Shown piece after piece: positions 10,905-27,397 of a stretch of DNA of 64,000 bases. This DNA is from Jiangella asiatica. Its GTDB lineage: Bacteria > Actinomycetota > Actinomycetes > Jiangellales > Jiangellaceae. A program made the position numbers and the translations under genes. The stretch's first letter is position 1. Each line of letters begins with the position of its first letter. The DNA lies in the NCBI RefSeq assembly GCF_004349065.1, contig NZ_SMKZ01000001.1, forward strand, positions 372,001 through 436,000. The letters are read 5' to 3'. The notes under the pieces are model-generated. The model was not told the DNA's origin, ran no database searches, and saw only the letters and a list, made by a program, of their open reading frames with translations.

Positions 10905-10905
10905 G

Positions 10906-11690: not shown

Positions 11691-14600
11691 CTACGGCGTC
11701 TCGTCGATGAACGTCACGTAGGGCGCCTCGCCTTCCCCGTCGATGCCAGAGTTCGGGCCGAGGGAGACCCGACCGGCTGGCAGCTGCTTCGTCCAGACCA
11801 CGAGCGGCACGTTCTGCCGGTCGGCGGGGATGTTCCAGGCCGAGAGGTCACCGGAGAAGTCGTCGTCGAACAGGACGCTTCCGTCGGGCGCGCTGACGGT
11901 GAACTGGTCGAACTCACCGACCTCGCTGCCGGCTTGACGGATGCCGGCAGCGCCGGAGGCGAATGTGCTGTCGCGGCGATCGTCGACCAGCTCGCCGTTG
12001 ATGAACGTGCGGATGCGATCCCCGGTCGCCTCGACCCGCAGGTCGTACTCGTTGCCGGCGCCCGGTTCGATCGGGTTCACCTGCCCGATGCGGGTGAGCC
12101 TGCCGTCGATCATCGTGTACATCTGCAGCTGTCCCAGGCCGCCGTCGCTGCCGAGGTCGCCGCCGATCTGCCAGACGTAGCCGTTGCGCGAGTCCGGTGC
12201 CCGGAACATGACGCCGGTGCCGACCTGCACCTGTTGCAGGGTCACCTCGAGGACCTGGTCGGACCAGTCGTTCTCGCCGTCGATCAAGGTCACCCCGGAC
12301 CCGGACACGCGCATCCGGCCATCTGGTTCCAGCCCCACGCGCTGCAGGAAGTCGTGCGTGTCGATGGTCATGTCGGTTCGCGTGAACCCCTGCTCCTCCA
12401 GCCAGTCCGGCCACCAGGTCCCGTCGCCGCGCTGGTCGAGCGCGACGTACACGTCGGCCGGCTGGCTCAGGTCGAGGGTGAGGTAGTCGGCCGGTTCGGC
12501 GTTCTCGGCGTCGTCCGGAGCGCCGCGGACCATGGCCGTGCCCTCCAGGGCGTCCGGGAGGTCGGGCAGGGCGTTGCTGCTCTCCAGCAGGTGGTCGACG
12601 CCGTCCTCGGCGCGCACCAGCCGGTCGAGGTAGCTGGGCGCGACGACGTCGACGACGTCGCTGCGGATCTCCGGCGTGCTGGACTCCACACCCAGGGTCT
12701 GGCCGCCCAGGTGCCGCGCCTCGGCGGCCGGCTCGCCGCCGACCTCGTCGAACCGGAACGACCGCAGCGGGTCGCCGACCCGCTCGACCAGGTAGCTCGC
12801 ACCGTCCTCGACGGCCAGCTCGATCTCGTCGGCGTTCGTCGGCCGGACGACCGAGTGGTCCGGGTCGGCACCGTCGACGACGCGGATGCGCTCGCCGGGC
12901 CACGGGTTGGCGATCCGCAGCGTCTCGTCGGAGCCGGCCTGGATGCCGACGTGGTTCGGCGCCCCGTCGCGGACCTGGGTGCTCACCACGTGCCCGCCGG
13001 GGATGACGACGGAGCCGTCGACGTCCCAGTCGTCCACCCACGACGGCGCGATGCGGACGACGCCCTCGTGCGCTTGCACCAGGGCCTCCTGGAGTGCTCC
13101 GGCGACGACCGCGCTCCACGAGCTGTAGTAGTTGTGAATCGAGGCGGGGTCGTCGTTCTTGCCGTGGCCGGTGAAACCGTTCGGGAACTTCTGCAGGTCG
13201 ACCGTGCCCTCCACGAGCAGCCGTTCCATGTCGTCGGGCAGGCCGAGGCGGGCGGCCCAGCTCGGGCTCTCGTCCCACTCACGGGTCAGCGGGAACACCC
13301 GCTGCTCGAATGTGTCGCGCATCAGCTGCGAGTCGATGCCGAAGAGGTTCCACGGCATCAGCGGCTCGAGGTCGACGTTCTGCGTGTTCTTGGCCGGCTC
13401 GTCGGTGGCTGACCACGCCATCACCTCCACGCCGTTTCGCGTGGTGGTGGTGAACTCCGGCAGCTTCGGGATCGTCGCCAGCAGCTCGTCGGCCAGCTCG
13501 TCGTCGCCGCGGTCGGCGGCCAGTTCGGCCACGATCGGGAACAGCACCTTCATTGCCGCGACGTCCGGCGTCGGGTCGGTCGTGTCCCACTGGGTCTCCA
13601 GCGAGTTCACGTTGTGTAGGTGGACACGGCCGTCGTCGCCCTCTTCGAGCAGCGACAGGTAGAAGCGGACGACCTCGCGCATCAGCGGGTAGCCCTCGTC
13701 CAGCACGGCCTCGTCGCCGGTGTAGAGGTACTGCTTCCAGATGTTGTGCGCGACCTCGGGGCCGGTGGAGATGACCCGGTTGAGGAAGGCCGGCCCGACC
13801 TCGCCGTCGCACGCCCCGCCGGTGCCGTCGAAGCGCAACAGCTCCGGCACGCAGACGCCCTCGGTGTCCGGCCAGACCTGCCGGGTCCAGTCCAACATCT
13901 GCGGCAGCCGGTCGTTGTAGAGACTGAGGTAGGCGTCGTTGAACTCCGCGGTCCCGGCACCGAAGTTCGCGAACACCTGCTGGCGCAGGTTGAAGTGGAA
14001 CCAGAAGGCCGGCGAGATCATCTGGTCCTCGAACGGGTACAGCATGTTCGCCGCGCCGGCCTGGCCCGTCGGCACGTCCGCGCGCTGTGTGGCGGCCGTG
14101 GTGTAGAGCTGCTGGACGCGCAGGTTCTCCATGTACTCCCCGACACCGTCATCGGAGCCGATCCGCATCGGCGCGGCGGTGGCCCAGAAGTCCGACCACC
14201 ACGCCAAGTGGGTGGCCTCGACGTCGGCTTCCGCGCCGGCCAGCGCGTCGGCCGCCGCCGCGGCCACGTCGCCGCCGGTGTAGGCGGGAACGCCGGTCAC
14301 CACTCGGAACGACCCGTCGGCCGCGGGCCGGAACGTCAGGCGTACCGTCTGCTCGTCGACGACCTCGGCGACCACGTCGCGCGCCACCGCGGTCACCGCG
14401 GCGACGGCACCGGTGGTGATGCCGGACTGCTCGTCGGTGAACGTCTCGGCCAGCGCGGCGACGCCGCCCTCGGCGTACGTCGCCGGGGCGCGGTCCTCCC
14501 ACAGGCGAAGCTCGACGGTCTGGGGCTGGTCCGGGTCCGCGCCGGTCACCTCGACCACCAGCTGATCGGCTTCGGCACGGACGTAGCTGAGCGCGGTCAG

Positions 14601-15029
14601 GCCGGCGCCGGACTGCCGCAGCTGGGCGTCGTACATGTCCAGCCGGCCGGCGTAGTCATCGGCGGCGGAGAGGTCGAACAGACCCGGGATCACCAGCTGG
14701 CCGGCCGACTTCAGCTCCGGGAACGTGTCGTTCCGGTTGAGCTGGGCGGTGAAGCCGTGCTCTGCCCACACCGCCGCGCCGAGGTGGCCGTTGCCCAGCG
14801 GCATGCTCTCGTAGTCACGCCAGGGCGCCTGTTCGAGGATGAGGTCGGAGCGGGAGATCAGGCCCTCGGTGTCCACCTGCAGGGCGCCGTCGCGCCAGGC
14901 GGTGGAGTCGCCCTCCGATTTCTCCGCCGCGGCGCCCATCGAGCTCACCGGGACTGGCGCCACGAGCAACGACATCCCCGCGACCAGTGCCGCGGTGAGT
15001 GCCGTCCTGAGTAGACGTCTGTGCATCAT
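11691..15029 (-). CDS. Secreted GH95-like glycoside hydrolase
   Basis: An 1112-residue exported protein with a signal peptide (residues 1 to about 34). The N-terminal beta domain begins like GH95 alpha-L-fucosidases and alpha-L-galactosidases (PLGNGHLGAAVW near residue 77, then QLNRNDTF). An (alpha/alpha)6-barrel follows with HNVNSLETQWD, where GH95 places its acid Glu, and a late QEALVQAHEGVVRIAPSW. After about residue 850 comes a beta-sandwich of the LamG/DUF1080 kind. The usual GH95 D-containing active-site segment is not obvious, so the substrate may differ from fucosides. A GGAGG overlaps closely, so the second ATG (15026) may be the real start. A LacI-type operator lies directly upstream (15039-15050). 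Confidence 0.78.
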   Translation of the reverse strand: MMHRRLLRTALTAALVAGMSLLVAPVPVSSMGAAAEKSEGDSTAWRDGALQVDTEGLISRSDLILEQAPWRDYESMPLGNGHLGAAVWAEHGFTAQLNRNDTFPELKSAGQLVIPGLFDLSAADDYAGRLDMYDAQLRQSGAGLTALSYVRAEADQLVVEVTGADPDQPQTVELRLWEDRAPATYAEGGVAALAETFTDEQSGITTGAVAAVTAVARDVVAEVVDEQTVRLTFRPAADGSFRVVTGVPAYTGGDVAAAAADALAGAEADVEATHLAWWSDFWATAAPMRIGSDDGVGEYMENLRVQQLYTTAATQRADVPTGQAGAANMLYPFEDQMISPAFWFHFNLRQQVFANFGAGTAEFNDAYLSLYNDRLPQMLDWTRQVWPDTEGVCVPELLRFDGTGGACDGEVGPAFLNRVISTGPEVAHNIWKQYLYTGDEAVLDEGYPLMREVVRFYLSLLEEGDDGRVHLHNVNSLETQWDTTDPTPDVAAMKVLFPIVAELAADRGDDELADELLATIPKLPEFTTTTRNGVEVMAWSATDEPAKNTQNVDLEPLMPWNLFGIDSQLMRDTFEQRVFPLTREWDESPSWAARLGLPDDMERLLVEGTVDLQKFPNGFTGHGKNDDPASIHNYYSSWSAVVAGALQEALVQAHEGVVRIAPSWVDDWDVDGSVVIPGGHVVSTQVRDGAPNHVGIQAGSDETLRIANPWPGERIRVVDGADPDHSVVRPTNADEIELAVEDGASYLVERVGDPLRSFRFDEVGGEPAAEARHLGGQTLGVESSTPEIRSDVVDVVAPSYLDRLVRAEDGVDHLLESSNALPDLPDALEGTAMVRGAPDDAENAEPADYLTLDLSQPADVYVALDQRGDGTWWPDWLEEQGFTRTDMTIDTHDFLQRVGLEPDGRMRVSGSGVTLIDGENDWSDQVLEVTLQQVQVGTGVMFRAPDSRNGYVWQIGGDLGSDGGLGQLQMYTMIDGRLTRIGQVNPIEPGAGNEYDLRVEATGDRIRTFINGELVDDRRDSTFASGAAGIRQAGSEVGEFDQFTVSAPDGSVLFDDDFSGDLSAWNIPADRQNVPLVVWTKQLPAGRVSLGPNSGIDGEGEAPYVTFIDETP

Positions 15030-15038: not shown

Positions 15039-15050
15039 ACAATCGATTGA
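15039..15050. promoter_or_regulatory. LacI-type operator before GH95-like gene
   Basis: The palindrome CAATCGATTG (15040-15049) lies immediately upstream of the ribosome-binding site of the GH95-like gene. Its half site matches the operators at 23277-23288 and 27386-27397. The LacI protein encoded at 15912-16940 is the likely ligand. Confidence 0.65.
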
Positions 15051-15094: not shown

Positions 15095-15868
15095 CTACGG
15101 GTGGGACGGGTGGATGCCGGCGGTTCCGGGTTCGGTTTCGAGTGCCCGGGCCGCCGCGCGCAGGAGCGGGATCACCACCCCGCGCGGCAGCCGGCTGGGC
15201 TCGCTCGCCGCGGCCAGCTGGACGATCTGACGCGCTGCCAGCGCCAGGCCTCCGCCGGAGGTGTCCGGCACGACCTGGAGCCGCGGCGCGCCGACGCCGA
15301 TCAGCAGTGCGGGCGCCGGCTCGACGACGGGGAGCTCGACCAGCAGCCTGTCCTCGGCGGCGTCGTGGACGGTCAGCCCCGCGCCGGTGCCGGGCACCGG
15401 GTCGGCCCGCGCCGCCGCCAGGGCCCGGGTCAGCCCTGCCACCGACAGCTCGGTGGCGCCCGGTACCGCGGCCGCGGTCAGCGCGCCGTCGGCGCCGGGA
15501 ACCGTCACGCTCAGGTCGGTCACCGACGCATGAGCCTCGCTCGCCGCCAGCAGCACCGCGACGGCCACCCGGGCGAGCAGCTCGTCCGGGCCGGTGCCCC
15601 GCGCGAGCAGTCCGGTCACGTCGGCCTCGACGACGGCGAGCGAGCGCGCGGCCGCAGCCGGCGACACCGACGGCGCCACAGGGGACACGGACGGCCGTGA
15701 ATCGGCGAGATCTCGCAACCGGATGCGCCCGCTCACGCCGGTGCCGCGCACGGCCCGCAGGTCGATGCCCAGCTCTCCGGCGCGGCGGAGCACCGCCGGG
15801 GTGGGCGGCACCGGGGCGACCGGGTCGAGGTCGGTGCGGTACAGCACCCCGGGCGGTCGTCGGCTCAC
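15095..15868 (-). CDS. E2-like protein without lipoyl domain or catalytic motif
   Basis: A 257-residue protein that resembles the C-terminal two thirds of 2-oxoacid dehydrogenase acyltransferases (E2). Residues about 20-57 are a peripheral-subunit-binding domain (TPAVLRRAGELGIDL, GTGVSGRIRLRDLAD), which in E2 docks E1 or E3. The rest follows the acyltransferase fold in outline (segments near LLIGVGAPRLQVVPD). However, the DHRxxDG catalytic motif is missing where LALAARQIVQL stands. No lipoyl domain precedes it. It lies 43 bases after the LacI gene and may be the last gene of the operon that also encodes E1 alpha and beta. It may be a scaffold for that E1; true activity is unknown. Confidence 0.72.
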   Translation of the reverse strand: MSRRPPGVLYRTDLDPVAPVPPTPAVLRRAGELGIDLRAVRGTGVSGRIRLRDLADSRPSVSPVAPSVSPAAAARSLAVVEADVTGLLARGTGPDELLARVAVAVLLAASEAHASVTDLSVTVPGADGALTAAAVPGATELSVAGLTRALAAARADPVPGTGAGLTVHDAAEDRLLVELPVVEPAPALLIGVGAPRLQVVPDTSGGGLALAARQIVQLAAASEPSRLPRGVVIPLLRAAARALETEPGTAGIHPSHP

Positions 15869-15911: not shown

Positions 15912-16940
15912 TCATCGGGCCAGTGGTGGTGCGGTGGATTCCCGTGGCACCACCTCCATCGGGCCGGTGACGACCTCGCGGACGGTCTCGTCCGGCCCGA
16001 CCTGGGCCAGCAGCTCGACTCCGCGCTGGCCGAGCTCGCGCAGCGGCATCCGCACCGTGGTGAGCGCCGGCCAGAGGTGCTCGGCCAGTGGGAGGTCGTG
16101 GACGGCGACCACCGACATCAGGTCCGGCGCCGCCACGCCGCGTGAGCGCAGCGCGTGCAGCGCGCCGATGGCCGAGGCGAGGTTGGCCACGAAGACCGCG
16201 GTCGGCCGTTCGCCGGCATCGAGGATCTGGATCATCGCGCGGTATCCGCCGTGGGCCGTGTAGTCGCTGCGGTTTGTCCAGCCCGGCCGGACCACCAGCC
16301 CGTGCGTTCGCATCGAGGCGCGGTAGCCGCGCTCGCGCCGCTGTGCGGTGTCGGCGCGGCTCGGTCCGGCCAGGTGCGCGATCTCGGTGTGGCCGAGGCT
16401 GACGAGATGCTCGACGGCGAGGGCGGCGGCCCGCTCGTCGTCGAGCACCACGTGCCGGGCCTCGCCGCGCATCGTGCGGTTGACCAGCAGCCAGGGAAGG
16501 CCGTCGGCGGTCAGCCCGTCGAGGGTGGCCTTCGACGTCAGCTCGCCGGCCAGCAGCAGGCCGTCAACGCGGCCCTGCCCGAGCAGGTCGAGGTAGGAGT
16601 CCAGCTCCGACGCAGCGCCGGCGCTGCCGGTGAGCAGGACGCAGTCGCGTTCGGCGGCGGCCGCCTCGGCGCCCTTGATGATCTCCGCGTACACCGGGTT
16701 GGCGTAGTCCGGGATCAGCAGGCCGATCGTGCCGGTGCGCTGGGTGCGCAGCGTGCGGGCGGCGACGTTGGGCCGGTAGCCGAGCTCGCGGACTGCGTCG
16801 AGGACGCGGCGGCGGGTCTCCTCCCTGATGAGCAGGCGGGGATCGCCGCTGAGCACGCGCGAGATGACCGAGCGGTCGACCCGGGCGCGGGCGGCGACGT
16901 CGGCCAGTGTGACGCGGCGTCCGCCGGTGCCGGTGCTCAC
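15912..16940 (-). CDS. LacI family regulator of the carbohydrate locus
   Basis: A 342-residue LacI-family repressor. The helix-turn-helix is at residues about 9-30 (TLADVAARARVDRSVISRVL), the hinge region follows (YRPNVAARTLRTQ), and the rest is a periplasmic-binding-protein-like sensor domain from IGLLIPDYANPVYAEI. The GTG at 16940 overlaps the stop of the upstream oxidoreductase gene (GTGA). The three CAAWCGWTTG-type operators at 15039, 23277 and 27386 lie in front of the GH95-like gene, the transporter genes and the SDR gene. This makes it the probable local repressor. The effector should be a sugar or sugar acid of this pathway. Confidence 0.9.
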   Translation of the reverse strand: MSTGTGGRRVTLADVAARARVDRSVISRVLSGDPRLLIREETRRRVLDAVRELGYRPNVAARTLRTQRTGTIGLLIPDYANPVYAEIIKGAEAAAAERDCVLLTGSAGAASELDSYLDLLGQGRVDGLLLAGELTSKATLDGLTADGLPWLLVNRTMRGEARHVVLDDERAAALAVEHLVSLGHTEIAHLAGPSRADTAQRRERGYRASMRTHGLVVRPGWTNRSDYTAHGGYRAMIQILDAGERPTAVFVANLASAIGALHALRSRGVAAPDLMSVVAVHDLPLAEHLWPALTTVRMPLRELGQRGVELLAQVGPDETVREVVTGPMEVVPRESTAPPLAR

Positions 16941-18010
16941 GGTGCCTGCACCTGACCGGTGTCGGCGCTGCGGTACAGGGCGTGGATCAGCCGCAGCGTG
17001 CCGAGGTTGTCGCGGGCCGAGGTCGGCGCCTCCGCACCCGTGGCCACCTCCGCCAGCAGCGCGCGCATCGGCCCGGCCACGGCGTCGGGCAGCCAGCGGG
17101 ACGTGACCGGATAGGTCAGCCAGCCGTCGGTGGGCAGCGTGCGGCTGCTGACCTCGACGGTGCCGGGGCGGCCGCGCGGGTAGTCGTACAGCAGCCCGAT
17201 GGTGCCGCGGACGGCGCCCTCGGACCCGTCGATGCGGAACTGGGCCACGGCGTCGCCGGCGCGGTTCTCGTGGTTGACGAACACCATCGCGTGCGCGCCG
17301 GACGGGAACGTCAAGGTGCTGACGGTGCGCGTCTCGCCGGCCGGGCCCTGGCCGGGGGTGCCGCCGGTCGCCGCGTACACCGTCGCCGGGTCGCCGAGGA
17401 CCGAGCGGACGGAGTCGAAATAGTGGATGGAGTGGTACCAGAAGTCCAGCCGCGGGCTGCGGTAGAGCCACGGCCAGCCGGAGAAGTCGGTGGCGATGTC
17501 GACGGTGATCGTCATGGAGGTTGGCTCGCCGATCCAGCCCTGCCGCACCATCTCCCGTGCCGCCGCGACGCCCTCCTCGTAGCGCATCTGCTGGTTGACG
17601 GTGACGGCCCGGCCGCGGTCGGCGGCGAGCGCGACCAGGTCCTCGGCCACGGACAGCTCCAGGGCGAACGGCTTCTGGCACAGCAGGTGCTTGCCGGCCT
17701 CCAACGCCCGCCGCGCGATGTCCGGCTGGGCGGCCGGCGCGACGGCGATGTCGACGACCGGCACGTCGTCGGCGAGCAACTCGTCCAGCGAACCGTAGAG
17801 CCGCTCGACGCCGTGCCGCTCGGCTACCGCCGCGGCCTTGGCGCCGTCGAGGTCGAAGATGCCCCGGACCTCGAGCCCGGCGGCGGCGTAGGCGGGCAGA
17901 TGGGCGACGTCGACGATCGAGCCGGCGCCCACGACGGAGATCGGCAGGCGGTGGCCGGCAGGGACGGACAGGTCGCAGGCGGCCGCGATCGGACGCAGGA
18001 CGTCGAGCAT
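16937..18010 (-). CDS. Gfo/Idh/MocA family NAD(P)-dependent oxidoreductase
   Basis: A 357-residue sugar oxidoreductase. The Rossmann start is ISVVGAGSIVDVAHLPAY at about residue 24, the acidic end of strand 2 is in GIFDLDGAK, and the family EKP motif appears as CQKPFAL near residue 112. The C-terminal alpha/beta domain carries YHSIHYFDSVR with the catalytic His region. Such enzymes oxidise or isomerise sugars and cyclitols, for example galactose or inositol dehydrogenases. The ATG overlaps the stop of the lactonase-like gene. With the lactonase next door it could produce a sugar lactone, but the substrate is not identifiable. Confidence 0.88.
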   Translation of the reverse strand: MLDVLRPIAAACDLSVPAGHRLPISVVGAGSIVDVAHLPAYAAAGLEVRGIFDLDGAKAAAVAERHGVERLYGSLDELLADDVPVVDIAVAPAAQPDIARRALEAGKHLLCQKPFALELSVAEDLVALAADRGRAVTVNQQMRYEEGVAAAREMVRQGWIGEPTSMTITVDIATDFSGWPWLYRSPRLDFWYHSIHYFDSVRSVLGDPATVYAATGGTPGQGPAGETRTVSTLTFPSGAHAMVFVNHENRAGDAVAQFRIDGSEGAVRGTIGLLYDYPRGRPGTVEVSSRTLPTDGWLTYPVTSRWLPDAVAGPMRALLAEVATGAEAPTSARDNLGTLRLIHALYRSADTGQVQAP

Positions 18011-18858
18011 CACGCCACCTCCGGCAGCCGGTAGAAGTCTGCCGCCGTGCCGCCGAGCACCCGCCGCCGGTCGTCGTCGGACAGCGGCTCCAGCAGTTCC
18101 AGCGTCGCCCGCCACACCGGCTGGTAGCCGCCGGCCAGGACGCTGACCGGCCAGTCGCCGCCGTACATCAGGCGACCGGCGCCGAACACGTCGACGGCGT
18201 GCTCGACGTAGGGCGCGAGGTCGGCGGCGCTCCAGGTGGACCAGTCGGCGGCGGTGTTCAGGCCCGACACCTTGGCGTGGACGTTGGGGTGCTCTGCGGC
18301 GCGGCGCAGCAGCCTCGCCCACGGTTCCCACTCCCGCGTGCTGATCGGCGGCTTGGCCAGGTGGTCGATGACCAGCCGCAGCCCGGGATGGCGCGCGGCG
18401 AGCGTGGGGACGTGCTCGAGGTGCCGGGGGAGCACGGCCACCACGTCGAAGCTGAGGTCGTACTCGACCAGCAGCCCGAGGTTGTCCAGCACGGCGTCCT
18501 GCAGCAGCCAGTCCGGATCGGGCTCGTCGTGGATGAGGTGGCGGATGCCGACGAACCGCGGGTCGGGCGCGAACCGGTCCAGGACGGCCCGCGCGGCGCC
18601 GGCGTCGGTCAGGTCGGCCCAGCCGACGACGCCGGCCACCTCGGGGTGCCGGTCGGCCTGCGCGATCATCGCCTCGGTGTCCTCGACGGAGTTCGCGGCC
18701 TGTACCAGGACGGTGACGTCGACACCGGCGGCGGTCAGCTCGGGCTCGAGGTCCGCCCAGCCGAACGTGCGGTAGATCGGGCCCTGGTCGGGGGTGAGCC
18801 ACGGGTAGGCGACCGCCTCGAGGTCCCAGAAGTGCTGATGTGCGTCGACGACTCGCAT
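18010..18858 (-). CDS. L-fuconolactonase/L-rhamnonolactonase-type amidohydrolase
   Basis: A 282-residue TIM-barrel amidohydrolase of the COG3618 group, which includes L-fuconolactonase and L-rhamnono-1,4-lactonase. It starts with VDAHQHFWD (metal ligands) and has GIRHLIHDEPDPDWL, VIDHLAKPP and a late MYGGDWPVS carrying the conserved Asp. The start at 18858 has CAGGAGG eleven bases upstream; a longer frame to 18903 lacks this. It overlaps the oxidoreductase gene and would open the lactone made by a sugar dehydrogenase. The specific sugar is inferred only loosely from the GH95-like enzyme of the locus. Confidence 0.87.
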   Translation of the reverse strand: MRVVDAHQHFWDLEAVAYPWLTPDQGPIYRTFGWADLEPELTAAGVDVTVLVQAANSVEDTEAMIAQADRHPEVAGVVGWADLTDAGAARAVLDRFAPDPRFVGIRHLIHDEPDPDWLLQDAVLDNLGLLVEYDLSFDVVAVLPRHLEHVPTLAARHPGLRLVIDHLAKPPISTREWEPWARLLRRAAEHPNVHAKVSGLNTAADWSTWSAADLAPYVEHAVDVFGAGRLMYGGDWPVSVLAGGYQPVWRATLELLEPLSDDDRRRVLGGTAADFYRLPEVA

Positions 18859-18910
18859 GGGCTGATCGACCTCCTGGCCAGAGTGTAGGGATGGCGGGGA
18901 CACCGGGGCG

Positions 18911-19387
18911 TCACGGCGGCGGCTGGACCAGCTCCAGGGTGATGTCGTCGGGATCGAGGAAGTAGCAGGCCTTGCCGCCCCGGTTCACGCCCGCGGTGAT
19001 GGCGTTCGGCGACGACAAGAAGCGCACCCCGGCTCCTGCCAGCCGGGTGTGCACGGCATCGGCGTCGGCGACGGCGAAGGCCAGGTGCGCCGCGCCGGCC
19101 CGTCCGCGCTCGGGGTCCAGCCGCGGCCGGGCCGGCTGGAGATACTGCACCAGCTCCAGGTCGTGTGACGACACGGTGCCCGCCGTGGGGCCGGCGCGCA
19201 GCTGCGCAACCCGCAGCCGGGCGTCCGGGTAGCCCACCAGCGAGCGTGTGTAGGGGTTGTCCTGGTCCTGGACGTGGACCAGGGTCATCCCGAGCAGGTC
19301 GCGGTAGAACGCCACGGAGGCGTCCACGTCGGTCACGGTGAAGCTGAAGTGCCAGATCCCGGTCACGGTGTCGGCGGGTCCGCTCAT
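18911..19387 (-). CDS. VOC (glyoxalase/dioxygenase-fold) family protein
   Basis: A 158-residue VOC-superfamily protein made of two beta-alpha-beta-beta-beta modules. The first begins HFSFTVTDVDASVAFYRDLL and the second HLAFAVADADAVHTRL, ending CYFLDPDDITLELVQPP with the usual metal-ligand Glu. The family covers isomerases, epimerases, lyases and dioxygenases that act on metal-chelated oxygenated substrates. Its start overlaps the permease stop (ATGA), so it is in the same operon. An isomerase or lyase step on a keto-acid intermediate is plausible but not shown. Confidence 0.85.
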   Translation of the reverse strand: MSGPADTVTGIWHFSFTVTDVDASVAFYRDLLGMTLVHVQDQDNPYTRSLVGYPDARLRVAQLRAGPTAGTVSSHDLELVQYLQPARPRLDPERGRAGAAHLAFAVADADAVHTRLAGAGVRFLSSPNAITAGVNRGGKACYFLDPDDITLELVQPPP

Positions 19388-20691
19388 GGGGTGGCCTGCC
19401 GCCGGTCCGGCGCCGTAGGCGAGTCCGCCCCAGCTGGCCGGTCGGGTGCTGGGCCGCCGCCTCCGCCGTCGTCGTCGTCAGGTGCGGCGACCGCCGGCCG
19501 GCTGCGCTGTCCACGACGTTCGGCCAGCACGTAGATCGTGGCGGCGCCGATGATCACGACACCCTTGATGAGGTCCTGGTAGTTGGCGCCCAGGTTCAGC
19601 ACGCCGAAGCCGTTGATCAGCGTGAACAGGATCAGCGCGCCGACGACGGACTTGAGCACGTTGCCCGCGCCGCCGAACAGCGACGTGCCGCCGAGGATGG
19701 CCGCGGCCAGCACCGTCAGCTCCAGGCCGGTCATCGCCTGCGGGTTGATGGCGGAGAACCGGGAGACGTAGAGGATGCCGACGAGCGCGGCGAACAGGCC
19801 GTTGAGCACGAACGGTGTGATCTTGTAGCGGGCCACGTCGATACCGGACAGCCGGGCGGCCTCGGTGTTGCCGCCGACGGCGTACAGGCGCCGGCCGACG
19901 GCGGTGAACCGCAGCACCAGCCACGCGACCACGGCGACCGCGACGAAGATGTAGACCTGCTTGGTGAGCTCCCACCGGGTCGGCAGGAACAGCAGGGCGA
20001 CCGCCACGACCACGACGCCGGCGCCCACCATCCACGGACCGTAGCCGCTGGTCACCAACCCCTTGCGTTCGCGCATCAGCGAACGAACGCCCAGCGCCAG
20101 GAACACGGCGCCGGCGATGGCGATCCACACCTTGGCGTTGAGCGGCAGGACCCCCGTGAACGCGTCGCCGAGCCCGTCGTGGTCGGTCTGGATGCTCTGC
20201 CCGTCGGTGAGGATGAACAGCAGGCCGCGGACGCCGGTCATCGTCCCGAGCGTCACGATGAACGCGTTCACGCCCACCAGCTGCACCAGCACGCCGTTGA
20301 GCAGACCCATTGCGGCGCCGGTGCCCAGCCCCGCCAGCACCGCCACGGCCACCCCGCTGCCGGTGTTGAGCACGGTCAGCGTGACCCCGGCACCGAGCGC
20401 CGCGGTCGCTCCGACTGACAGGTCGAAGTTGCCGCTGATGAGGCAGATGGTCATGATGACCGCGAGGATGCCCACCTGGACCGTCTGGTCGAGGATGTTC
20501 GCGGTGTTCACCGGAGACAGGTAGAACGGCCGGCCGGTGAGCTCCGCCGCCATCGTGAACGTCATCAGGATCAGCGCGAACGCGTACACGACGCCGGCCC
20601 GGTGCAGCCGGAACGGTTCGGCCCGCTGACGCAGGGACGGCGCCGGCCGCGCGCGCACCGCGCCGGCCGGTCGTGGCATGGTGGTCGTCAT
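19384..20691 (-). CDS. Ribose/xylose-type sugar ABC permease
   Basis: A 435-residue permease of the RbsC/XylH family (CUT2 class) with about ten or eleven hydrophobic segments. Family landmarks are LISGNFDLSVGA, GLLNGVLVQLVGVNAFIVTLG, YAVGGNTEAARLSGIDVAR and AAAILGGTSLFGGAG. Compared with RbsC it has an extra membrane region (about residues 180-240), as in XylH-like proteins, and an Asp/Gly-rich C-terminal tail. The ATG overlaps the stop of the ATPase gene, and its own stop overlaps the VOC gene. It imports the locus's sugar across the cytoplasmic membrane. Confidence 0.92.
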   Translation of the reverse strand: MTTTMPRPAGAVRARPAPSLRQRAEPFRLHRAGVVYAFALILMTFTMAAELTGRPFYLSPVNTANILDQTVQVGILAVIMTICLISGNFDLSVGATAALGAGVTLTVLNTGSGVAVAVLAGLGTGAAMGLLNGVLVQLVGVNAFIVTLGTMTGVRGLLFILTDGQSIQTDHDGLGDAFTGVLPLNAKVWIAIAGAVFLALGVRSLMRERKGLVTSGYGPWMVGAGVVVVAVALLFLPTRWELTKQVYIFVAVAVVAWLVLRFTAVGRRLYAVGGNTEAARLSGIDVARYKITPFVLNGLFAALVGILYVSRFSAINPQAMTGLELTVLAAAILGGTSLFGGAGNVLKSVVGALILFTLINGFGVLNLGANYQDLIKGVVIIGAATIYVLAERRGQRSRPAVAAPDDDDGGGGGPAPDRPAGADSPTAPDRRQATP

Positions 20692-22199
20692 CGTCGACTC
20701 GCTCCAGTCACGGTCGTCAGGCCGCTGGCCAGCGCCAGCAGCTCCGGTTCGTCGGTCTCTCCGGTCAGGCGCTCGGCGACGACCCGCCCCGCGCGCATGA
20801 CCACGATCCGGTGGGCGACCGCCAGCAGCTCCTCGAAGCCCGAGGAGACGATCACCACCGCCTTGCCCGCCGCTGCGAAGCCGCGCACGAGCTGGAGGAT
20901 GTCCGCTTTCGCGCCGACGTCCACGCCGACCGTCGGCTCGTCCAGCAGGAAGACGTCGCCGTCGCCGAACAGCCACTTGCCGAAGACGACCTTCTGCGCG
21001 TTCCCGCCGGACAGCGCGCCGACGGGGGTCTCGGCGGACGGGGTGCGGATGCCGAGGTCGGCGATGGCCCGCTCCGCGCGGTCCAGCTCGGCGGCGTGGT
21101 CCGGGACGCCGCGCCGCGACAGGGCGCCCAGCCCCGGCAGCGACACGTTGCGCCAGATCTCCCACGCCGGGACCAAACCCTGCCGGGCGCGGTCCTCCGG
21201 CACCAGGGCGATGCCCGCCCGGACCCGGGAACGCACCCGGTTGCGCACGGGCTCCCCGCGCACGGCCACCGTGCCCGAGCACCGCGGGTCGGCGCCGAAC
21301 AGCGCCTCGAGCAGCTCCGAGCGGCCCGAGCCGAGCATCCCCGCTACGCCGACGATCTCGCCCGCCCGGACGGTGAGGTCGACGCCGGCCAGCCGGCCGG
21401 GGGACGCCAGGTCGCGCGCCTCCAGCAGCACCGGGGCACCTGACGGTAGCGGATCGGCGCGGTGCTCCTCGATCTCGTGCAGGCGCCGGCCGACCATGGC
21501 GTCCACCAGCGCCGCCTCGTCGAGGCTCGCGGTGGGCGCGGACGTCACGACCCGCCCGTCGCGCAGCACGGTGACCGCGTCGGTGAGCTCCAACACCTGG
21601 TCGAGGAAGTGCGAGCAGAACACGAACGAGACCCCGTCGGCACGCAGCCGGCGCACTGCGGCGAACAGCACGTCGACCTCGGCGTGCGCCATGGACGCCG
21701 TCGGCTCGTCCATGCACACCAGCGTCGCGCCGCCGGCCAGCGCCTGGGCGACGGCGACCATCTGCCGCTCGCCGAGTGGCAGCTCGCCGACGATGCGGTC
21801 CGGGTCGGCGCGGTAGCCCAGCCGCTCGCACAGCTCCTCGTAGCGCTGCAGCAGCGGCGCGGTGCGGAACACCCCGGACAGCTCACCGATGTAGACGTTC
21901 TCGAGCACCGTCAACGTCGGCACCAGCGGGATGTGCTGGTGGATCGTCGACACGCCGGCCGCGCGGGAGTCGCCCGGGGCGCTCCACGTGACGTCCGCCC
22001 CTCGCCAGCGGATCCGCCCGGCGGTCGGCGGGATCGCCCCGGCGATGATTTTGAACAGGGTGGACTTGCCGGCGCCGTTCGCCCCGACCAGGCCGTGGAT
22101 CGAGCCCTCCTCGACGGCGAGGCTCACCTGCCGCAGCGCCTCGGTCCCGTTGGGGAACCGCTTCGAGACACCGCGGGCCTCGAGCAGCACCTCGCTCAC
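20688..22199 (-). CDS. Sugar ABC transporter ATP-binding protein (two domains)
   Basis: A 503-residue RbsA-type ATPase with two ABC domains in one chain. Domain 1 has Walker A GANGAGKST, a variant signature LPLGERQMV and Walker B LVCMDEPTAS. Domain 2 has the degenerate Walker A GMLGSGRSE and an intact LSGGNAQKVVFGKWL with FLLDEPTVGVD, the usual RbsA asymmetry. GTG 22199 was chosen because it puts the family start (VLLEARGVSKRF) near the N-terminus and avoids overlap with the upstream gene; a GTG at 22241 would add 14 residues. It works with the permease and binding protein encoded on either side. Confidence 0.92.
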   Translation of the reverse strand: MSEVLLEARGVSKRFPNGTEALRQVSLAVEEGSIHGLVGANGAGKSTLFKIIAGAIPPTAGRIRWRGADVTWSAPGDSRAAGVSTIHQHIPLVPTLTVLENVYIGELSGVFRTAPLLQRYEELCERLGYRADPDRIVGELPLGERQMVAVAQALAGGATLVCMDEPTASMAHAEVDVLFAAVRRLRADGVSFVFCSHFLDQVLELTDAVTVLRDGRVVTSAPTASLDEAALVDAMVGRRLHEIEEHRADPLPSGAPVLLEARDLASPGRLAGVDLTVRAGEIVGVAGMLGSGRSELLEALFGADPRCSGTVAVRGEPVRNRVRSRVRAGIALVPEDRARQGLVPAWEIWRNVSLPGLGALSRRGVPDHAAELDRAERAIADLGIRTPSAETPVGALSGGNAQKVVFGKWLFGDGDVFLLDEPTVGVDVGAKADILQLVRGFAAAGKAVVIVSSGFEELLAVAHRIVVMRAGRVVAERLTGETDEPELLALASGLTTVTGASRR

Positions 22200-22224
22200 C
22201 TCGTCACCGCGCGCCGCGCCCCGG

Positions 22225-23220
22225 TCACCACTGCGGCTCACAGTCGTCGACGTTCTCCGCGGTGATCACGGGCGTGTCGTAGAACACCAGCTCGCCGGTG
22301 CCGTAGGAGTCGTCGTCGATCGCCTTCTTGAGCTCCTCCATGGCTCGGGCGCCGCCGTCGTACGGCTTGTAGCAGACGGTGCCGTCCATGCCGCCGGCGG
22401 CAATCGAGTCGATGCCGAGCTGAGCGCCGCCGACCCCCCACACGATGGCGCTGGAGCCCACCGCGTCGACCGCTTCCTGGCAGCCGACCGCCATGTCGTC
22501 GGAGATGGCGTAGAACCCGACGATGCCGGGGTTGGCGTTGAGCATCGACGCGCACGCCGCCTGGCCCTGGTCGGCCACCCAGCCGCCGGGCTGCTCGGCG
22601 ACGATCTCGAACGTGCCCTCGGTGACGGCGCGGAACTGCTCCACCCGCAGTGTGTTCTCGGCGTAGCCGGGGGCGCCCAGGACGAGGCCGATCGGGCCGC
22701 CGTCGGGGAGCTGCTCCATCATCGCCTGGCCGACCATCTCGCCGACGCCGGTCTCGTTCTCGATGACCAGCGCGCTCAGCGACGGGTAGACGTCGTCGAT
22801 GGCGCGGTCGGCGCCGATGATGCTGTGGTAGCTCACGACCTTGATGCCCGCGTCGGTCATCTGGTCGACGAACTCGCCGGCCTCGGCGGCGTTTGCCGGG
22901 ATGATGATCACGCCGTCGGGCTGCTGGGCGATGATGGTCTGGACGTTGGCGGCCTCGGTCTGCACCTCGCTCTTGCCGTCGAGGTTCGCGATCACCTCGC
23001 AGCCCAGCTCCTCGGCCTTGTCGACGATGCCGGCGGCGCCGGCGTTGGGGTACGGGAAGGCCGTGCCGGAGCCGTTGTCGATCGCGATCCGGCAGCTGCC
23101 GGAGTCCTCCGAGCCCTCGGCGCTCGTCTCGGTGCTGGTGTCCTCGGTCGCGCAGGCGGTCAGGGACACGGCCAGCGCGCCGATCAGGGCGGCGGCCCTC
23201 ACTCCGTTGTGGTGCCTCAT
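22225..23220 (-). CDS. Sugar-binding lipoprotein (CUT2 class)
   Basis: A 331-residue periplasmic-binding-protein type I lipoprotein with lipobox SLTAC after a short hydrophobic stretch. The mature domain begins CRIAIDNGSGTAFPYPNAG and includes IIAQQPDGVIIIPANAAEAGE, typical of ribose/xylose/galactose-binding proteins that hand cargo to RbsA/RbsC partners. It lies 25 bases before the ATPase gene. A LacI-type operator is centred about 62 bases upstream, so the transport genes probably also have their own promoter inside the larger cluster. The ligand is unknown. Confidence 0.9.
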   Translation of the reverse strand: MRHHNGVRAAALIGALAVSLTACATEDTSTETSAEGSEDSGSCRIAIDNGSGTAFPYPNAGAAGIVDKAEELGCEVIANLDGKSEVQTEAANVQTIIAQQPDGVIIIPANAAEAGEFVDQMTDAGIKVVSYHSIIGADRAIDDVYPSLSALVIENETGVGEMVGQAMMEQLPDGGPIGLVLGAPGYAENTLRVEQFRAVTEGTFEIVAEQPGGWVADQGQAACASMLNANPGIVGFYAISDDMAVGCQEAVDAVGSSAIVWGVGGAQLGIDSIAAGGMDGTVCYKPYDGGARAMEELKKAIDDDSYGTGELVFYDTPVITAENVDDCEPQW

Positions 23221-23276: not shown

Positions 23277-23288
23277 TCAATCGTTTGA
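23277..23288. promoter_or_regulatory. LacI-type operator before transporter genes
   Basis: TCAATCGTTTGA lies between the end of the E1 beta gene and the sugar-binding protein gene. It is the exact reverse complement of the 12-mer at 27386-27397. An overlapping perfect palindrome, GATTGATCAATC, occupies 23271-23282. Binding by the LacI protein at 15912-16940 is inferred. Confidence 0.7.
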
Positions 23289-23297: not shown

Positions 23298-24284
23298 TCA
23301 GCCGGCGGCGACGAGCTGCCGCACGGCGGCGGCGATCTGGTCGGCGCCAGGCACGACGGCGGCCGCGAGGCCGGGGGCGGCGGGCAGCCGCAGGTCCGGC
23401 ACGGCGACCCGCCGCGGCGGTGCCGCGAGCGCGATGCCGGCCTCGGCCACCCGGGCAAGCACCTCTGCGCCGAACCCGCCGGTGCGGTTGGCCTCGTGCG
23501 CGACGACGAGCCGACCGGTCCGGGCGACCGACGCCAGCACCTCGTCCCACGGGAACGGGTCCAGCCACGGCGTCTCGAGCACCTCGACGTCGTGGCCCTC
23601 CTGGGCCAGTGTCTCCGCGGCGGCCACGGTCTGCAGCGACAGCGCGCCCCAGGTCACGACGGTCGCGGTGGTACCGGTACGGCGGGTGCGCAGGCCGCCG
23701 ATCGGGGCGACCGGCCCGCCGAGGCTCACCTCCTGCTTGGCACCGTGGTAGAGCGTGCGGTTCTCGATCACGACGACGGGGTCGTCGCACCCGATGGCCG
23801 ACAACAGCAGGTCGTACGCGTCCTGGGCGGTGACCGGCATGCACACCCTGATGCCGGGCGTGTGCAGGAAGAACGCCTCGAGGCTCTGCGAGTGCTGTGC
23901 GCACGAGCCCGGTGCGGTGCCCTGCTGGGTGCGGATGGTCAGCGGCGCGGTGAGCCGCCCCTCCGACACGTAGCGGACGTTCGCCGCCTGGTTGACGACC
24001 TGGTCCAGGGCGACCAGGAAGAAGTCGGTCCACATGATCTCGACCACCGGGCGCCGGCCGAACATGGCGGCACCGACGGCGGAGCCGAGGATGGCCGACT
24101 CGCTGATGGGGGTGTCGAACACCCGGTCGCCGAACTGCTTGCGCAGGCCCTTGCTGACCCCGAAGACCCCGCCGGGCACGCCGACGTCCTCGCCGTAGAG
24201 CAGGACCTCGGGCCGTTCCTCGAGGGCGCGGCGCAGCGCGGCGTTGGCCGCCTCGCCGTAGGACAGCTTGCGGGTCTCAGGCAT
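23298..24284 (-). CDS. Thiamine-diphosphate E1 beta subunit (acetoin-dehydrogenase-like)
   Basis: A 328-residue E1 beta subunit of the two-subunit 2-oxoacid/acetoin dehydrogenase family. It has LSYGEAANAALRRALEERP, the cofactor-activating Glu in VLLYGEDVGV, the conserved FDTPISESAILGSAVGAA, and the C-terminal transketolase-like domain with VLETPWLDPFPWDEV. It overlaps the end of the E1 alpha gene by eight bases, so the subunits are coupled. No lipoyl-bearing E2 or E3 is encoded nearby; the only E2 relative is the truncated protein at 15095-15868. Either it borrows another E2, or it performs a non-oxidative thiamine reaction on a pathway intermediate. Confidence 0.9.
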   Translation of the reverse strand: MPETRKLSYGEAANAALRRALEERPEVLLYGEDVGVPGGVFGVSKGLRKQFGDRVFDTPISESAILGSAVGAAMFGRRPVVEIMWTDFFLVALDQVVNQAANVRYVSEGRLTAPLTIRTQQGTAPGSCAQHSQSLEAFFLHTPGIRVCMPVTAQDAYDLLLSAIGCDDPVVVIENRTLYHGAKQEVSLGGPVAPIGGLRTRRTGTTATVVTWGALSLQTVAAAETLAQEGHDVEVLETPWLDPFPWDEVLASVARTGRLVVAHEANRTGGFGAEVLARVAEAGIALAAPPRRVAVPDLRLPAAPGLAAAVVPGADQIAAAVRQLVAAG

Positions 24285-25242
24285 GGACGTGCCTCCTGAC
24301 GGCTTCGGCGTCGGCCAGCGGGGCGGCCGCGGCCTCCCGCGCCGCCGCCTCGATCTCATGAGCGGCGTCGTCGTGCGCCGCGGCGATGTCGGACTCGGGG
24401 ACGGCCGCCGCGCGCAGTGCCGCCTGCAGCCTGGTGACCGGCTCGTTCTCGGCCAGCCGTTCCAGCTCGCCCGGCTGCCGGTACTGCTCGGCGTCGCCGA
24501 TGTAGTGGCCGACCAGGCGGGCCGTCATGAGCTCGAGCAGGACCGGGCCGCCGCCCTCCCTGGCGCTCTGGACCGCGTCGCCGACGCGGTCGCGCACGAC
24601 GGCCGGATCGTTGCCGTCGATGCGTTCGCCGAGCATGCCGTAGGCCCGGGCCCGGTCGGCGAGCACGTCGTTGCGCACCATGTCCCGGATCGGGGTCAGC
24701 TCGGAGTACTCGTTGTTCTCGCAGACGAACACCACCGGCAGGTCGAACGCGGCCGCGAAGTTCATCGACTCGTGGACCGCGCCCTGGTTCATCGCGCCGT
24801 CGCCGAAGACGCACAGCGCGACCCGCCCGGTACCGTCGAACCGCCCGGCCAGCGCCGCGCCGAGCGCCAGCGGCGCCCCGGCGCCGACGATCGAGTTCTC
24901 GCCGTGGAAGCCGTACTCGGGCGCGGTGAAGTGCGCCGATCCGCCGCGCCCGCCGTTGACGCCGGTGGCGCGGCCGAGCAGCTCCGCCAGAATCGCCGCG
25001 GCCGGCACGCCGCGGGCCAGCGCCCAGCCGTGCCCGCGGTACGTCGCGAACAGTGCGTCGGCCGGCTCCAGCACCGAGCAGGCGCCGACCGGGCCGGCCT
25101 CCTGCCCGATGCACAGGTGCACCGAGCCGACGATGTCGCCGCCCAGCCGGAGATCGCGGACCTTCTCCTCCAGCAGCCGGATGCGCCACACGTCGCGCAG
25201 GTCGCGCAGCATGGCTCCGGTGCCGGTCTCCGATTCCGTCAT
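24277..25242 (-). CDS. Thiamine-diphosphate E1 alpha subunit (acetoin-dehydrogenase-like)
   Basis: A 321-residue E1 alpha subunit. The thiamine-diphosphate motif runs from GDGAMNQGAVHESMNFAA to VFVCENN near residues 140-170. Other landmarks are YRGHGWALARGV and the loop GHYIGDAEQYR, which corresponds to the phosphorylation loop of E1 enzymes. Length and motifs fit acetoin dehydrogenase or two-subunit transketolase-like enzymes better than the long pyruvate E1. GAAGGAG precedes the ATG, which overlaps the lyase stop (ATGA). Its place between a lyase, an SDR and a sugar transporter suggests it handles a keto or acyloin intermediate of sugar breakdown. Confidence 0.9.
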   Translation of the reverse strand: MTESETGTGAMLRDLRDVWRIRLLEEKVRDLRLGGDIVGSVHLCIGQEAGPVGACSVLEPADALFATYRGHGWALARGVPAAAILAELLGRATGVNGGRGGSAHFTAPEYGFHGENSIVGAGAPLALGAALAGRFDGTGRVALCVFGDGAMNQGAVHESMNFAAAFDLPVVFVCENNEYSELTPIRDMVRNDVLADRARAYGMLGERIDGNDPAVVRDRVGDAVQSAREGGGPVLLELMTARLVGHYIGDAEQYRQPGELERLAENEPVTRLQAALRAAAVPESDIAAAHDDAAHEIEAAAREAAAAPLADAEAVRRHVHA

Positions 25243-26597
25243 CGCTCCTTCACCTCTCGCTGGACGGACCATGCCTCCAGGGCGCGGTCGCAGCTGGTTT
25301 CCGCCTCGCCGACGTAGTCGCCGGGGGCGATCGGCTCGGGCAGCAGCGCGGCGACCTCGGCGGTCCGGACGGCCTCGTCGAGGGTCGTGCCCTCGGCGCG
25401 GGCCCGGGCGGCCGCCGCGTAGACGGTGTCGTGCGCGCGTTCCCGCCCCAGGTGCGGCGCCAGCCGCATCATGTACGCCTCGGACAGCACCGACCCTCCC
25501 TCGGCGCCCATGTTCGACGCCATGGCCGCGGCGTCGACCTGCAGGCCTCGTGCCGTGTCGGCGGCCAGCGCCAGCGCGGCGGCCGTGCTGCACGCCAGGT
25601 CCGGGACGATCATCCACTCGGCCTGCCACTCGCCGGTGGCCCGTTCGTGGCCCGCCTCCAGCGCCCGGTACAGCCCGGGCAGCAGGGTGGTCGCGTGCAC
25701 GCTGAACCCGAGCATCGCCTCCGACGAGATCGGGTTGCGCTTCTGCGGCATCGTCGACGACGCTCCCCGGTGGTGGCCGTCGACCTCGCGCACCTCGGCG
25801 ATCTCGGTGCGCGACAGGTCGACGATCTCGCGCCCGAACCGGCCGGCCGTCCCCGCCGCCGCCGCGCACGCCGCACCGAACTCGACCAGGCGGTCGCGCG
25901 CCACGTGCCACGGCACGTCGTCCGCGGCCAGCCCGAGCTCGGCCGCCATCGCCCGCCGGACGGCCGCCGCGGTCGACCCCAGCGCGGCAGACGTGCCGCC
26001 GGCACCGTACAGCGACACGACACCGACCGCTGCCGCCGCCGTCCGCAGACGGGCGAGGTCGCGGGACACCTGGCCGAGGTAGGTCGCGATCTTGGCGCCG
26101 AAGGTGGTCGGGACCGCCTGCTGTGCGTGCGTCCGGGCCGCCATCACGGTGCTGCGATGCCGGCCGGCCAAGGCGGCGAGGGCGTCACCGAACTCGCGGA
26201 GCAGCTCGTCGAGTCGCCGGCCCGCCGCGACCAGCTGCAGGACGAGGCCGGTGTCCATGATGTCCTGCGTGGTCGCTCCCCAGTGCACCCGCGGCGGCCT
26301 GGCGCCGTCGACCGGCTCGGCCAGCTGCCGCACCAGCGGCAGGACCGGATAGCCGACGTTGCGCGATTCCTCCCACAGGGTGGGCAGGTCGACGGGCTGC
26401 TCGGCGAGCCGGCTCTTCAGCGCCTGGACGTCATGGTCGTCGACGACGCCGACGCTCGCCTGCGCTTGGCACAAGGCCAGCTCGGCTCGCAGCCACCCGT
26501 CGACGGTGGCCTCCTCGCTGAACACGCGCGTCATCGGCTCGTCCGCGTACAAGGCGGTGAGCAGGCGGAACGGTCCCGGGATCGCACCGTTGGCCAT
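25239..26597 (-). CDS. Fumarase-superfamily lyase (PcaB/adenylosuccinate-lyase-like)
   Basis: A 452-residue member of the aspartase/fumarase superfamily, closest in pattern to 3-carboxymuconate cycloisomerase and adenylosuccinate-lyase-like proteins. The signature is SSTMPQKRNPISSE near residue 280, with the conserved HWGATTQDIMDTG near residue 105 and RTHAQQAVPTTFG near 155. The family eliminates fumarate-like acids or cyclises dicarboxylates. No purine or protocatechuate gene is nearby; it shares an A with the SDR stop (TGATG) and precedes E1 alpha. It probably performs an elimination or lyase step in the sugar pathway, which would be an unusual role. Confidence 0.85.
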   Translation of the reverse strand: MANGAIPGPFRLLTALYADEPMTRVFSEEATVDGWLRAELALCQAQASVGVVDDHDVQALKSRLAEQPVDLPTLWEESRNVGYPVLPLVRQLAEPVDGARPPRVHWGATTQDIMDTGLVLQLVAAGRRLDELLREFGDALAALAGRHRSTVMAARTHAQQAVPTTFGAKIATYLGQVSRDLARLRTAAAAVGVVSLYGAGGTSAALGSTAAAVRRAMAAELGLAADDVPWHVARDRLVEFGAACAAAAGTAGRFGREIVDLSRTEIAEVREVDGHHRGASSTMPQKRNPISSEAMLGFSVHATTLLPGLYRALEAGHERATGEWQAEWMIVPDLACSTAAALALAADTARGLQVDAAAMASNMGAEGGSVLSEAYMMRLAPHLGRERAHDTVYAAAARARAEGTTLDEAVRTAEVAALLPEPIAPGDYVGEAETSCDRALEAWSVQREVKER

Positions 26598-27373
26598 CAG
26601 TGCATCTCCAATCCGCCGTCGACGTTGACCGCCTGGCCCGTCACGTAGGAGGCGAGGTCGCTGACCAGGAAGAGGACGACGGCGGCGAGCTCGTCGGGGC
26701 GACCCTCCCGGCGCAACGGCGCGGCGGCCGTCACCTCACGCAGGTAGGCCTCGCCGGCGCCGGGACCGAACGCCTTGCCGCGGTCGGCGATGATGCCGTC
26801 CCACATCGGCGTGTGGAAGACGCCGGGGCACACGGCGTTGACGCGGACCGCCGGCCCGTAGGCCAGGGCGGCGGACTTGGTCATGGACAGCAGGGCGGCC
26901 TTGCTGGCGGCGTAGTGGACCGCGTTCGGCCGGCCGGATCGGCCCGCGACCGAGGCAAGGGTGACGACGGCGCCGCCGTGCTCGGCCATCGCGTTCGCCG
27001 CGGCCTGGGTGACCAGGAACGTCGCCGTGAGGTTGACGTCCATGATGCGCCGCCACGACTCCTCGCTCACTTGGGCCATCGGTGTCGTCTCCATGATCCC
27101 GGCGCAGTTGACCAGGATGTCCAGGCCACCGAGGACGCCGGTCGCCTCGTGTACCGCCCGCGCCGGCTCGCCGGCACCGGTGAGGTCGGCCTCGATACCG
27201 ACCGCGGCGTCGCCCAGTTCCTCGACCGCCGCCTTCACCGGCTCGCCCGGTAGGTCGCACACGGCGACGCGCGCACCGGCGGCGGCGAGCAACCGGGAGC
27301 AGGCCAGGCCGAGACCGCCGGCGCCTCCGGTGATCAGTGCCCGTCGCCCCCGGAGGTCGACAGCAACGCTCAC
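26597..27373 (-). CDS. Short-chain dehydrogenase/reductase
   Basis: A 258-residue classical SDR. The cofactor loop is ITGGAGGLGLACSRLL at residues 14-29, followed by VNCAG, the catalytic Ser/Tyr/Lys region ending HYAASKAALLSMTKS, and the C-terminal YVTGQAVNVDGGLEMH. Asp in AVCDLPGEP suggests NAD(H) preference. GTG 27373 has AGGAGG just upstream. It is the first gene of the catabolic cluster, and a LacI-type operator lies 12 bases before the start, so it should be tightly repressed. A sugar or deoxy-keto-sugar-acid dehydrogenase is likely. Confidence 0.9.
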   Translation of the reverse strand: MSVAVDLRGRRALITGGAGGLGLACSRLLAAAGARVAVCDLPGEPVKAAVEELGDAAVGIEADLTGAGEPARAVHEATGVLGGLDILVNCAGIMETTPMAQVSEESWRRIMDVNLTATFLVTQAAANAMAEHGGAVVTLASVAGRSGRPNAVHYAASKAALLSMTKSAALAYGPAVRVNAVCPGVFHTPMWDGIIADRGKAFGPGAGEAYLREVTAAAPLRREGRPDELAAVVLFLVSDLASYVTGQAVNVDGGLEMH

Positions 27374-27385: not shown

Positions 27386-27397
27386 TCAAACGATTGA
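27386..27397. promoter_or_regulatory. LacI-type operator before SDR-headed operon
   Basis: TCAAACGATTGA lies just upstream of the SDR ribosome-binding site. It is the reverse complement of the operator at 23277-23288 and matches the LacI-family consensus with a central CG. Occupancy would block the first promoter of the catabolic operon. Confidence 0.7.

Follow-up and report, generated by a model that had tools for sequence, protein, structure and literature searches.

E2 acyltransferases form the acyl-transferring core of enzyme complexes that supply the citric acid cycle. What does an E2-like protein do in a sugar gene cluster if it has kept the binding domain of an E2 acyltransferase and lost its catalytic equipment? 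The protein, a pseudo-E2 that we call E2L, is encoded on the minus strand at 15095..15868 of the window, the whole 64-kb stretch of DNA that was analysed. It starts with GTG and comprises 257 amino acids, arranged as an N-terminal peptide, a peripheral-subunit-binding domain (PSBD), a linker and a shortened E2 catalytic-domain fold. The PSBD (residues 22-54; 15707..15805, minus strand) was matched by Pfam E3_binding with an E-value of 2.2e-8 (34.6 bits, cutoff 23.7), and no Pfam catalytic-domain family was reported at E ≤ 0.1. The top NCBIfam match, over residues 23-83, was to TIGR02927, a model of actinobacterial E2s, and at 32.9 bits it lies far below the cutoff of 423. When solved structures were searched with phmmer, E2L matched AceF of Corynebacterium glutamicum (6zzl; whole-sequence E 1.1e-7) in two aligned stretches, residues 22-88 and, weakly, 113-219.

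The region resembling the catalytic domain (residues 76-244; 15137..15643, minus strand) was delimited by alignment and structure models. When E2L was aligned with 40 canonical actinobacterial E2s, its SEPSRLPRG (15179..15205, minus strand) came to stand opposite the catalytic YDHRLIDGA, so that the motif is replaced in place and the DHRxxDG columns read EPSRLPR. The columns of the TN.G motif read HDAA. Moreover, nothing in E2L aligns with the catalytic domain's first helix or with part of its hairpin, and residues 81-244 of E2L make up 164 residues compared to a median of 197 in the 40 E2s; identity to 20 canonical E2 rows is 23-28%. As the 40 sequences were picked by the DHRxxDG pattern, their His and Asp counts hold by construction, and the PSBD and TN columns are independent of that choice. 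A catalytic motif elsewhere within E2L was ruled out by the alignment and the column counts.

A lipoyl domain was detected neither in the protein nor in the 43 bases up to the end of the upstream LacI gene, nor in the 64-kb window when searched by tblastn with three lipoyl domains (E ≤ 0.1). We could therefore also rule out a lipoyl domain that lies upstream or in another frame. Of the features that define an E2, E2L has the PSBD and the fold and is without the lipoyl domain and DHRxxDG. With neither a lipoyl domain nor the catalytic His and Asp nor the TN motif, E2L cannot, by its sequence, act as an E2 transacylase. The sequence-only reading of this locus, which had noted the missing lipoyl domain and His/Asp motif and drawn the same conclusion, was right on all these points.

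That reading had also described an open reading frame with a PSBD and the outline of an acyltransferase fold, which the Pfam and phmmer matches and two structure models bear out. The model computed from the four available E2L sequences alone was of poor confidence (mean pLDDT 49.5). Among the 50 Foldseek matches listed for it, 49 were E2 or E3BP chains by title, with M. tuberculosis DlaT first, and the remaining one (8x03) has an uninformative title; coming from a model of low pLDDT, these matches may be read as weak support for an E2 fold. A second model, with 20 canonical E2 rows added to the alignment, reached a pLDDT of 85.4. Its residues 71-247 superposed on M. tuberculosis DlaT with a Z of 17.7 and 2.4 Å over 173 residues, a result that the added rows bias towards the E2 fold.

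The openness of the reading frame proves little, because long chance frames are common at 72% GC; one of 400 amino acids lies on the strand opposite E2L. The case for a real gene rests instead on orthologues, domain matches and a selection test. We found E2L orthologues in 4 of 22 Jiangellaceae genomes, the own genome included. The other three are G010, G008 and G001, with identities to the E2L of the window of 67, 60 and 44% in the search and 65, 61 and 42% in the alignment. All remaining weak matches in the 22 genomes extend over the PSBD only. The lyase of the cluster (E ≤ 1e-80) is present in the same four genomes, and the position of E2L is fixed in all of them, after the LacI gene and before the GH95-like gene. 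AGGAGA stands directly upstream of the start codon and is kept in the four orthologues. The frame is open throughout in all four species. In G008 a contig break inside the gene leaves two parts at contig ends, and the single TGA counted in that match is the frame's own stop (L024 701-703), beyond which the match extended.

In all four E2Ls the catalytic His is replaced by Pro, DHRxxDG is lost and the Asn of the TN motif is lost as well. Because of this shared loss of His and Asn, the active site was most simply lost before Jiangella and Haloactinopolyspora split. Homologues with an intact motif, which would have marked E2L as a decayed gene, were not found, and E2L is not a lone decayed copy. 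An alignment-based query of named genome contigs gave two matches, apparently those of G008 and G001, in Jiangella aurantiaca and Haloactinopolyspora alba, both Jiangellaceae. Scans with the single E2L sequence gave no match among plasmids (tblastn) and none among the named genome contigs, the pattern method behind the latter scan being insensitive. No E2L orthologue was recognised among 396 genomes of the phylum (own genome apart), for which part of the weak matches was read; at most six candidates per genome were scored, which makes the rarity of E2L an estimate.

We also screened weak matches for other dead E2s. The 43 loci screened were 12 from family genomes, 29 from the phylum search and two of the three from a further search (L004, E 0.144, was left out). 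DHRxxDG was detected by pattern in 40 of them, and the remaining three, as read, have DHRTIDG (L031), DHRAVDG (L053) and DHQILDG (L056). The phylum search gave 14 further places outside the 43. Those in G266 and G355 were read, one is an E2 of the own genome (L002), and the remaining 11, with open frames of 417-703 amino acids, were left out of the reading. A short frame in G406 turned out to be an E2 at a contig end. No second E2L was recognised among the weak-match loci read. One of the E2s, L062 of G355 (9098-10915), is otherwise full length with its PSBD stretch open in another frame (9717-10214), a pattern as after paired frameshifts or sequencing errors. In the literature, mostly open-access, we found neither a bacterial lipoyl-less dead E2 nor an account of the E1 lineage of the window.

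To judge selection, we compared E2L and 12 neighbouring genes in the four genomes by the method of Nei and Gojobori. The dN/dS of E2L, window against G010, G008 and G001, was 0.54, 0.55 and 0.68, compared to 0.10-0.30 for the neighbours (36 comparisons), which makes E2L the fastest evolving of the 13 genes. Neutral evolution was simulated from the E2L sequence with substitutions only, under three base compositions with 200 replicates each, with dS matched to the G010 and G001 distances. At the G010 distance, the minimum of simulated dN/dS in the three settings was 0.70, 0.79 and 0.86; the corresponding minima for the G001 distance were 0.67, 0.75 and 0.80. In the AT-richest setting at the latter distance, the observed 0.68 is not below the simulated minimum of 0.67 and thus lies at the edge of the null. 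A stop was acquired in 89-99% of the simulated pairs. The constraint is uneven along the protein. PSBD identity is 65% in each pairing. At the widest distance, both the linker and the C-terminal part that surrounds the lost motif evolve almost neutrally, with a pN/pS of 1.24, at or above parity, for the lost-motif region. As to the marks of a pseudogene, there is no frameshift or stop in four genomes, and dN/dS is below or at the edge of the neutral simulations. E2L is thus under weak purifying selection, weaker than that on its neighbours. Together with the frame kept open in four genomes, this makes a stable protein, on which the sequence-only reading had made its proposals depend, plausible.

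E2L lies in a cluster that is encoded entirely on the minus strand. In the direction of transcription we found genes for an SDR oxidoreductase (26597..27373), a lyase resembling adenylosuccinate and carboxymuconate lyases (25239..26597), an E1 alpha subunit (24277..25242, start codon inferred) and an E1 beta subunit (23298..24284) of a lineage without E2 neighbours. These are followed by a sugar ABC transporter (19384..23220, with the binding protein at 22225-23220, the ATPase at 20688-22241 and the permease), a VOC (glyoxalase-like) protein (18911..19387), an L-fuconolactonase-like amidohydrolase (18010..18903, below the NCBIfam cutoff), a Gfo/Idh/MocA oxidoreductase (16937..18010) and, directly upstream of E2L, a LacI-family regulator (15912..16940, start inferred). 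The gene downstream of E2L encodes a GH95-like glycosidase (11691..15029). Close to the C-terminus of this 1112-residue protein, a 3-keto-disaccharide-hydrolase domain is matched weakly, below the cutoff; the same cluster also encodes a Gfo/Idh enzyme. The lyase, a member of the adenylosuccinate/carboxymuconate-lyase superfamily in a sugar cluster, stays under every NCBIfam cutoff listed.

A LacI-type operator-like palindrome, CAATCGATTG, lies between E2L and the glycosidase gene (15040..15049). Two similar sites with one mismatch each, likewise without strand, were found before the transporter unit that ends with E2L (23278..23287) and before the SDR-lyase-E1 unit (27387..27396). With up to one mismatch there are three such palindromes in the window against 0.46 expected, and 0 of 100 shuffles reached three, for a pattern that was chosen after the first site had been seen. 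G010, G008 and G001 have the sites at corresponding positions, and G656 and G513 share them in part; a few additional sites occur, and G478 has none at corresponding positions. No RNA family reached its gathering score between 11000 and 29000 of the window. By their positions, the palindromes would divide the cluster into three transcription units. The SDR-lyase-E1 unit, the unit from the transporter to E2L and the glycosidase unit probably form one LacI regulon. As the presumed operators bound these units, E2L would be the last gene of the second one, a unit other than that of the E1 genes, which lie about 7.4 kb away.

We surveyed relatives of the E1 pair at 23298-25242. The survey covered 16 loci without E2L, namely 11 genome places and five of eight plasmid records, whose E1 beta subunits are 51-73% identical. 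No E2 gene was found at any of the 16 loci by tblastn at 1e-4, and an E2 profile run in six frames gave nothing beyond chance-level scores (E 2.5 and above). The sequence covered was about 4-12 kb on each side where the contig allowed, and L090, with only 3.3 kb, barely covers its neighbourhood. As positive controls, two more distant E1 pairs, on own contig C56 and in G266, do adjoin an E2. The one weak lipoyl match among the E1 loci (L092, E 0.039) lies inside an 1830-residue frame, which we took, from the start of its sequence, for a biotin-type carboxylase. The E1 pairs of the window lineage (L084-L099 besides that of the window) are encoded on plasmids and in actinobacterial catabolic clusters of several kinds, among them clusters of sugar or inositol type and of acetoacetate-decarboxylase type, and no E2 was detected in their vicinity. 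The own genome (G000) has a second such pair on contig C53 (L089, 9580-11527), which is 57-62% identical and adjoins genes for an ABC solute-binding protein, amidohydrolases and a 2-hydroxyacid dehydrogenase. In two relatives a muconolactone-isomerase-like protein is encoded with the E1 pair (L086, 8100-8396; L099, 12920-13210), in one of them next to an annotated scyllo-inosose 3-dehydrogenase.

Three of the 16 loci (G656, G513 and G478) harbour the cluster of SDR, lyase, E1 pair, VOC protein, amidohydrolase, Gfo/Idh enzyme and LacI regulator with no E2L. Searching these three genomes as a whole gave 20 E2 loci, some of them two parts of one gene, of which 19 carry DHRxxDG and one (L109) has DHRFING. 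Three equivalent clusters without E2L indicate that the pathway does not need it. In a tree of E1 beta, the four rows that come with E2L form one group (support 100/99) among rows without an E2; two long outgroup branches meet in this tree and five forks are open, which leaves its deep order unsure. The grouping and the clusters without E2L are most simply explained if E2L was gained once and late, in Jiangellaceae, and it looks like a late, dispensable addition to the cluster.

The pair has E1 alpha and beta folds and, in alignment, active-site histidines. E1 beta has a His aligned with H128 of the Geobacillus subunit (1w85_B), and E1 alpha retains in the alignment the His of the human GHS stretch, which we take to be the same residue as H271 of the Geobacillus alpha subunit. 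For the Geobacillus enzyme, roles in acyl transfer are described for H128 of beta and H271 of alpha in PMC2663715. With these residues conserved, the pair could work on its own or transfer acyl groups to a lipoyl domain supplied in trans.

E2-type catalysis is thus excluded as far as sequence can exclude it, and what remains is a two-halved binding protein of E2 origin. We see an even chance that E2L is a genuine protein which one sugar-degradation regulon retains for non-catalytic binding, and for a retained non-catalytic function of any kind the balance seems just as level. An E2-derived protein would, on the simplest account, have lost its lipoyl domain together with its active site before Jiangella and Haloactinopolyspora separated. 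E2L would work through protein contact, one partner being bound by its PSBD-like end and another by the end that resembles an E2 core. As an adaptor it might tether the E1 pair of the cluster to the lipoyl-bearing core of the housekeeping E2, for which genes lie on contigs C90 and C56, in the way that E3BP links E3 to the core in eukaryotes; this mechanism, which we favour among the specific ones and which agrees with the anatomy, is tentative and on the unlikely side. Slightly more doubtful is that E2L is an independently arisen bacterial counterpart of E3BP, lipoyl-less and dead, bridging an E2-less sugar-pathway E1 pair to housekeeping lipoyl arms. The adaptor view is weakened by the loss of the helix-1 Arg described below and by the clusters that do without E2L.

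The main rival sees E2L as a passenger in slow decay, derived from an E2 fragment that the cluster took up a single time and whose function is gone or going, the residual constraint reflecting avoidance of harmful misfolding or the recent past. We consider this possible, at clearly less than even chances. Decay would agree with a dN/dS well above that of the 12 neighbours, with a linker and C-terminus near neutrality at the widest distance, with the loss of binding and catalytic residues alike and with the three equivalent clusters without E2L. It would also fit the narrow distribution, which is 4 of 22 family genomes and no orthologue recognised in the part of the phylum matches that was read. 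However, nearly all neutral replicates gave a higher dN/dS than was observed, and neutral drift brought stops into the great majority of pairs, whereas the real frame is intact in four species that also retain the ribosome-binding sequence and the PSBD. Moreover, the active site was lost in all four and the frame nevertheless stayed open.

The sequence-only reading had suggested that E2L may be a scaffold for the E1 pair of the same cluster; normal contacts of the PSBD would then be used. Such a scaffold would profit from the retained PSBD fold, from the loop Arg48 conserved in all four E2Ls and from the operator-like sites that place the E1 pair in the same regulon. However, the basic residues of helix 1 are lost. 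All 39 canonical E2s that reach the domain (the fortieth stops short of it) have the helix-1 Arg, against one of four E2Ls (Leu27 in the window). The same 39, and none of the four E2Ls, have a Lys/Arg at position 51, which lies two residues ahead of the conserved Asp. The net charge of the PSBD does not separate the groups (4, 2, 0 and 1 in the E2Ls; mean 1.7, range -2 to 4, in the E2s). Because of the lost Arg and Lys/Arg, canonical docking of E1 or E3 by this PSBD is doubtful. In addition, no E2 was found beside the 16 E1 relatives, three clusters with the same E1 do without E2L, and E2L sits in a different unit from the E1 genes. The scaffold proposal is therefore not supported by our data, and we regard it as improbable.

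The other role that had been proposed, that of a regulatory decoy, seems very improbable; in the presence of the sugar, E2L would then enter housekeeping E2 trimers or poison them. The fold of the trimer-forming domain is, in the models, retained; against this, the first helix of that domain has no counterpart, and identity to the 20 E2 rows does not exceed 28%. Dynaplanin, which is thought to act at the E2 active site (PMC9239090), was set aside as a reason for an E2 decoy because E2L has no such site. That the old acyltransferase fold has acquired a new active site and is an enzyme again is scarcely credible, as no conserved His stands in for the lost one and H168, the candidate, is missing from one of the four, even though stretches such as ATELS and LPxVxPA are conserved in all of them.

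If functional, E2L would be a bacterial pseudo-E2 in a role described for eukaryotic E3BP, and if the adaptor reading is true, the central complex would serve a specialised E1 as a common acyl carrier. E2L as a passenger would present a case of slow E2 decay within an intact operon. E2L also points to actinobacterial catabolic E1 alpha/beta pairs without a nearby E2, whose acyl acceptor is a testable question.

Among known systems, E2L is closest to the actinobacterial PDH-type E2 (DlaT/AceF; TIGR02927 SucB_Actino), with which it has the PSBD and the catalytic-domain fold in common and which gave the top sequence and structure matches. It differs from this E2 in having no lipoyl domain, no DHRxxDG and no TN motif and in its shorter catalytic-domain region. 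By its best matches, E2L would be derived from an actinobacterial E2 acyltransferase of the PDH type (E2p/DlaT). The E2 domain fused to E1o in OdhA/KGD of actinobacteria has the E2-type fold in common with E2L (Z 12.0-14.6 against the E2L model), and to our knowledge it has no lipoyl domain either. In OdhA, however, both steps are carried out in one polypeptide, as described in PMC10415282, whereas E2L is a separate protein that has lost the active site.

PMC10156792 and PMC6270654 describe eukaryotic E3BP (protein X) as a paralogue of E2 without catalytic activity that has a PSBD and binds the core through an E2-derived domain. The likeness lies in the order of a PSBD followed by an E2-type fold and in an acetyltransferase-homologous domain that, in E2L, is predicted to be inactive. 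E3BP is described as a eukaryotic gene (PMC10156792), and the mammalian protein retains a lipoyl domain (PMC6270654), whereas E2L is bacterial and has no lipoyl domain. Its best sequence matches, being actinobacterial E2p proteins, point away from orthology with eukaryotic E3BP. We file E2L as a pseudo-E2 and not as an E3BP.
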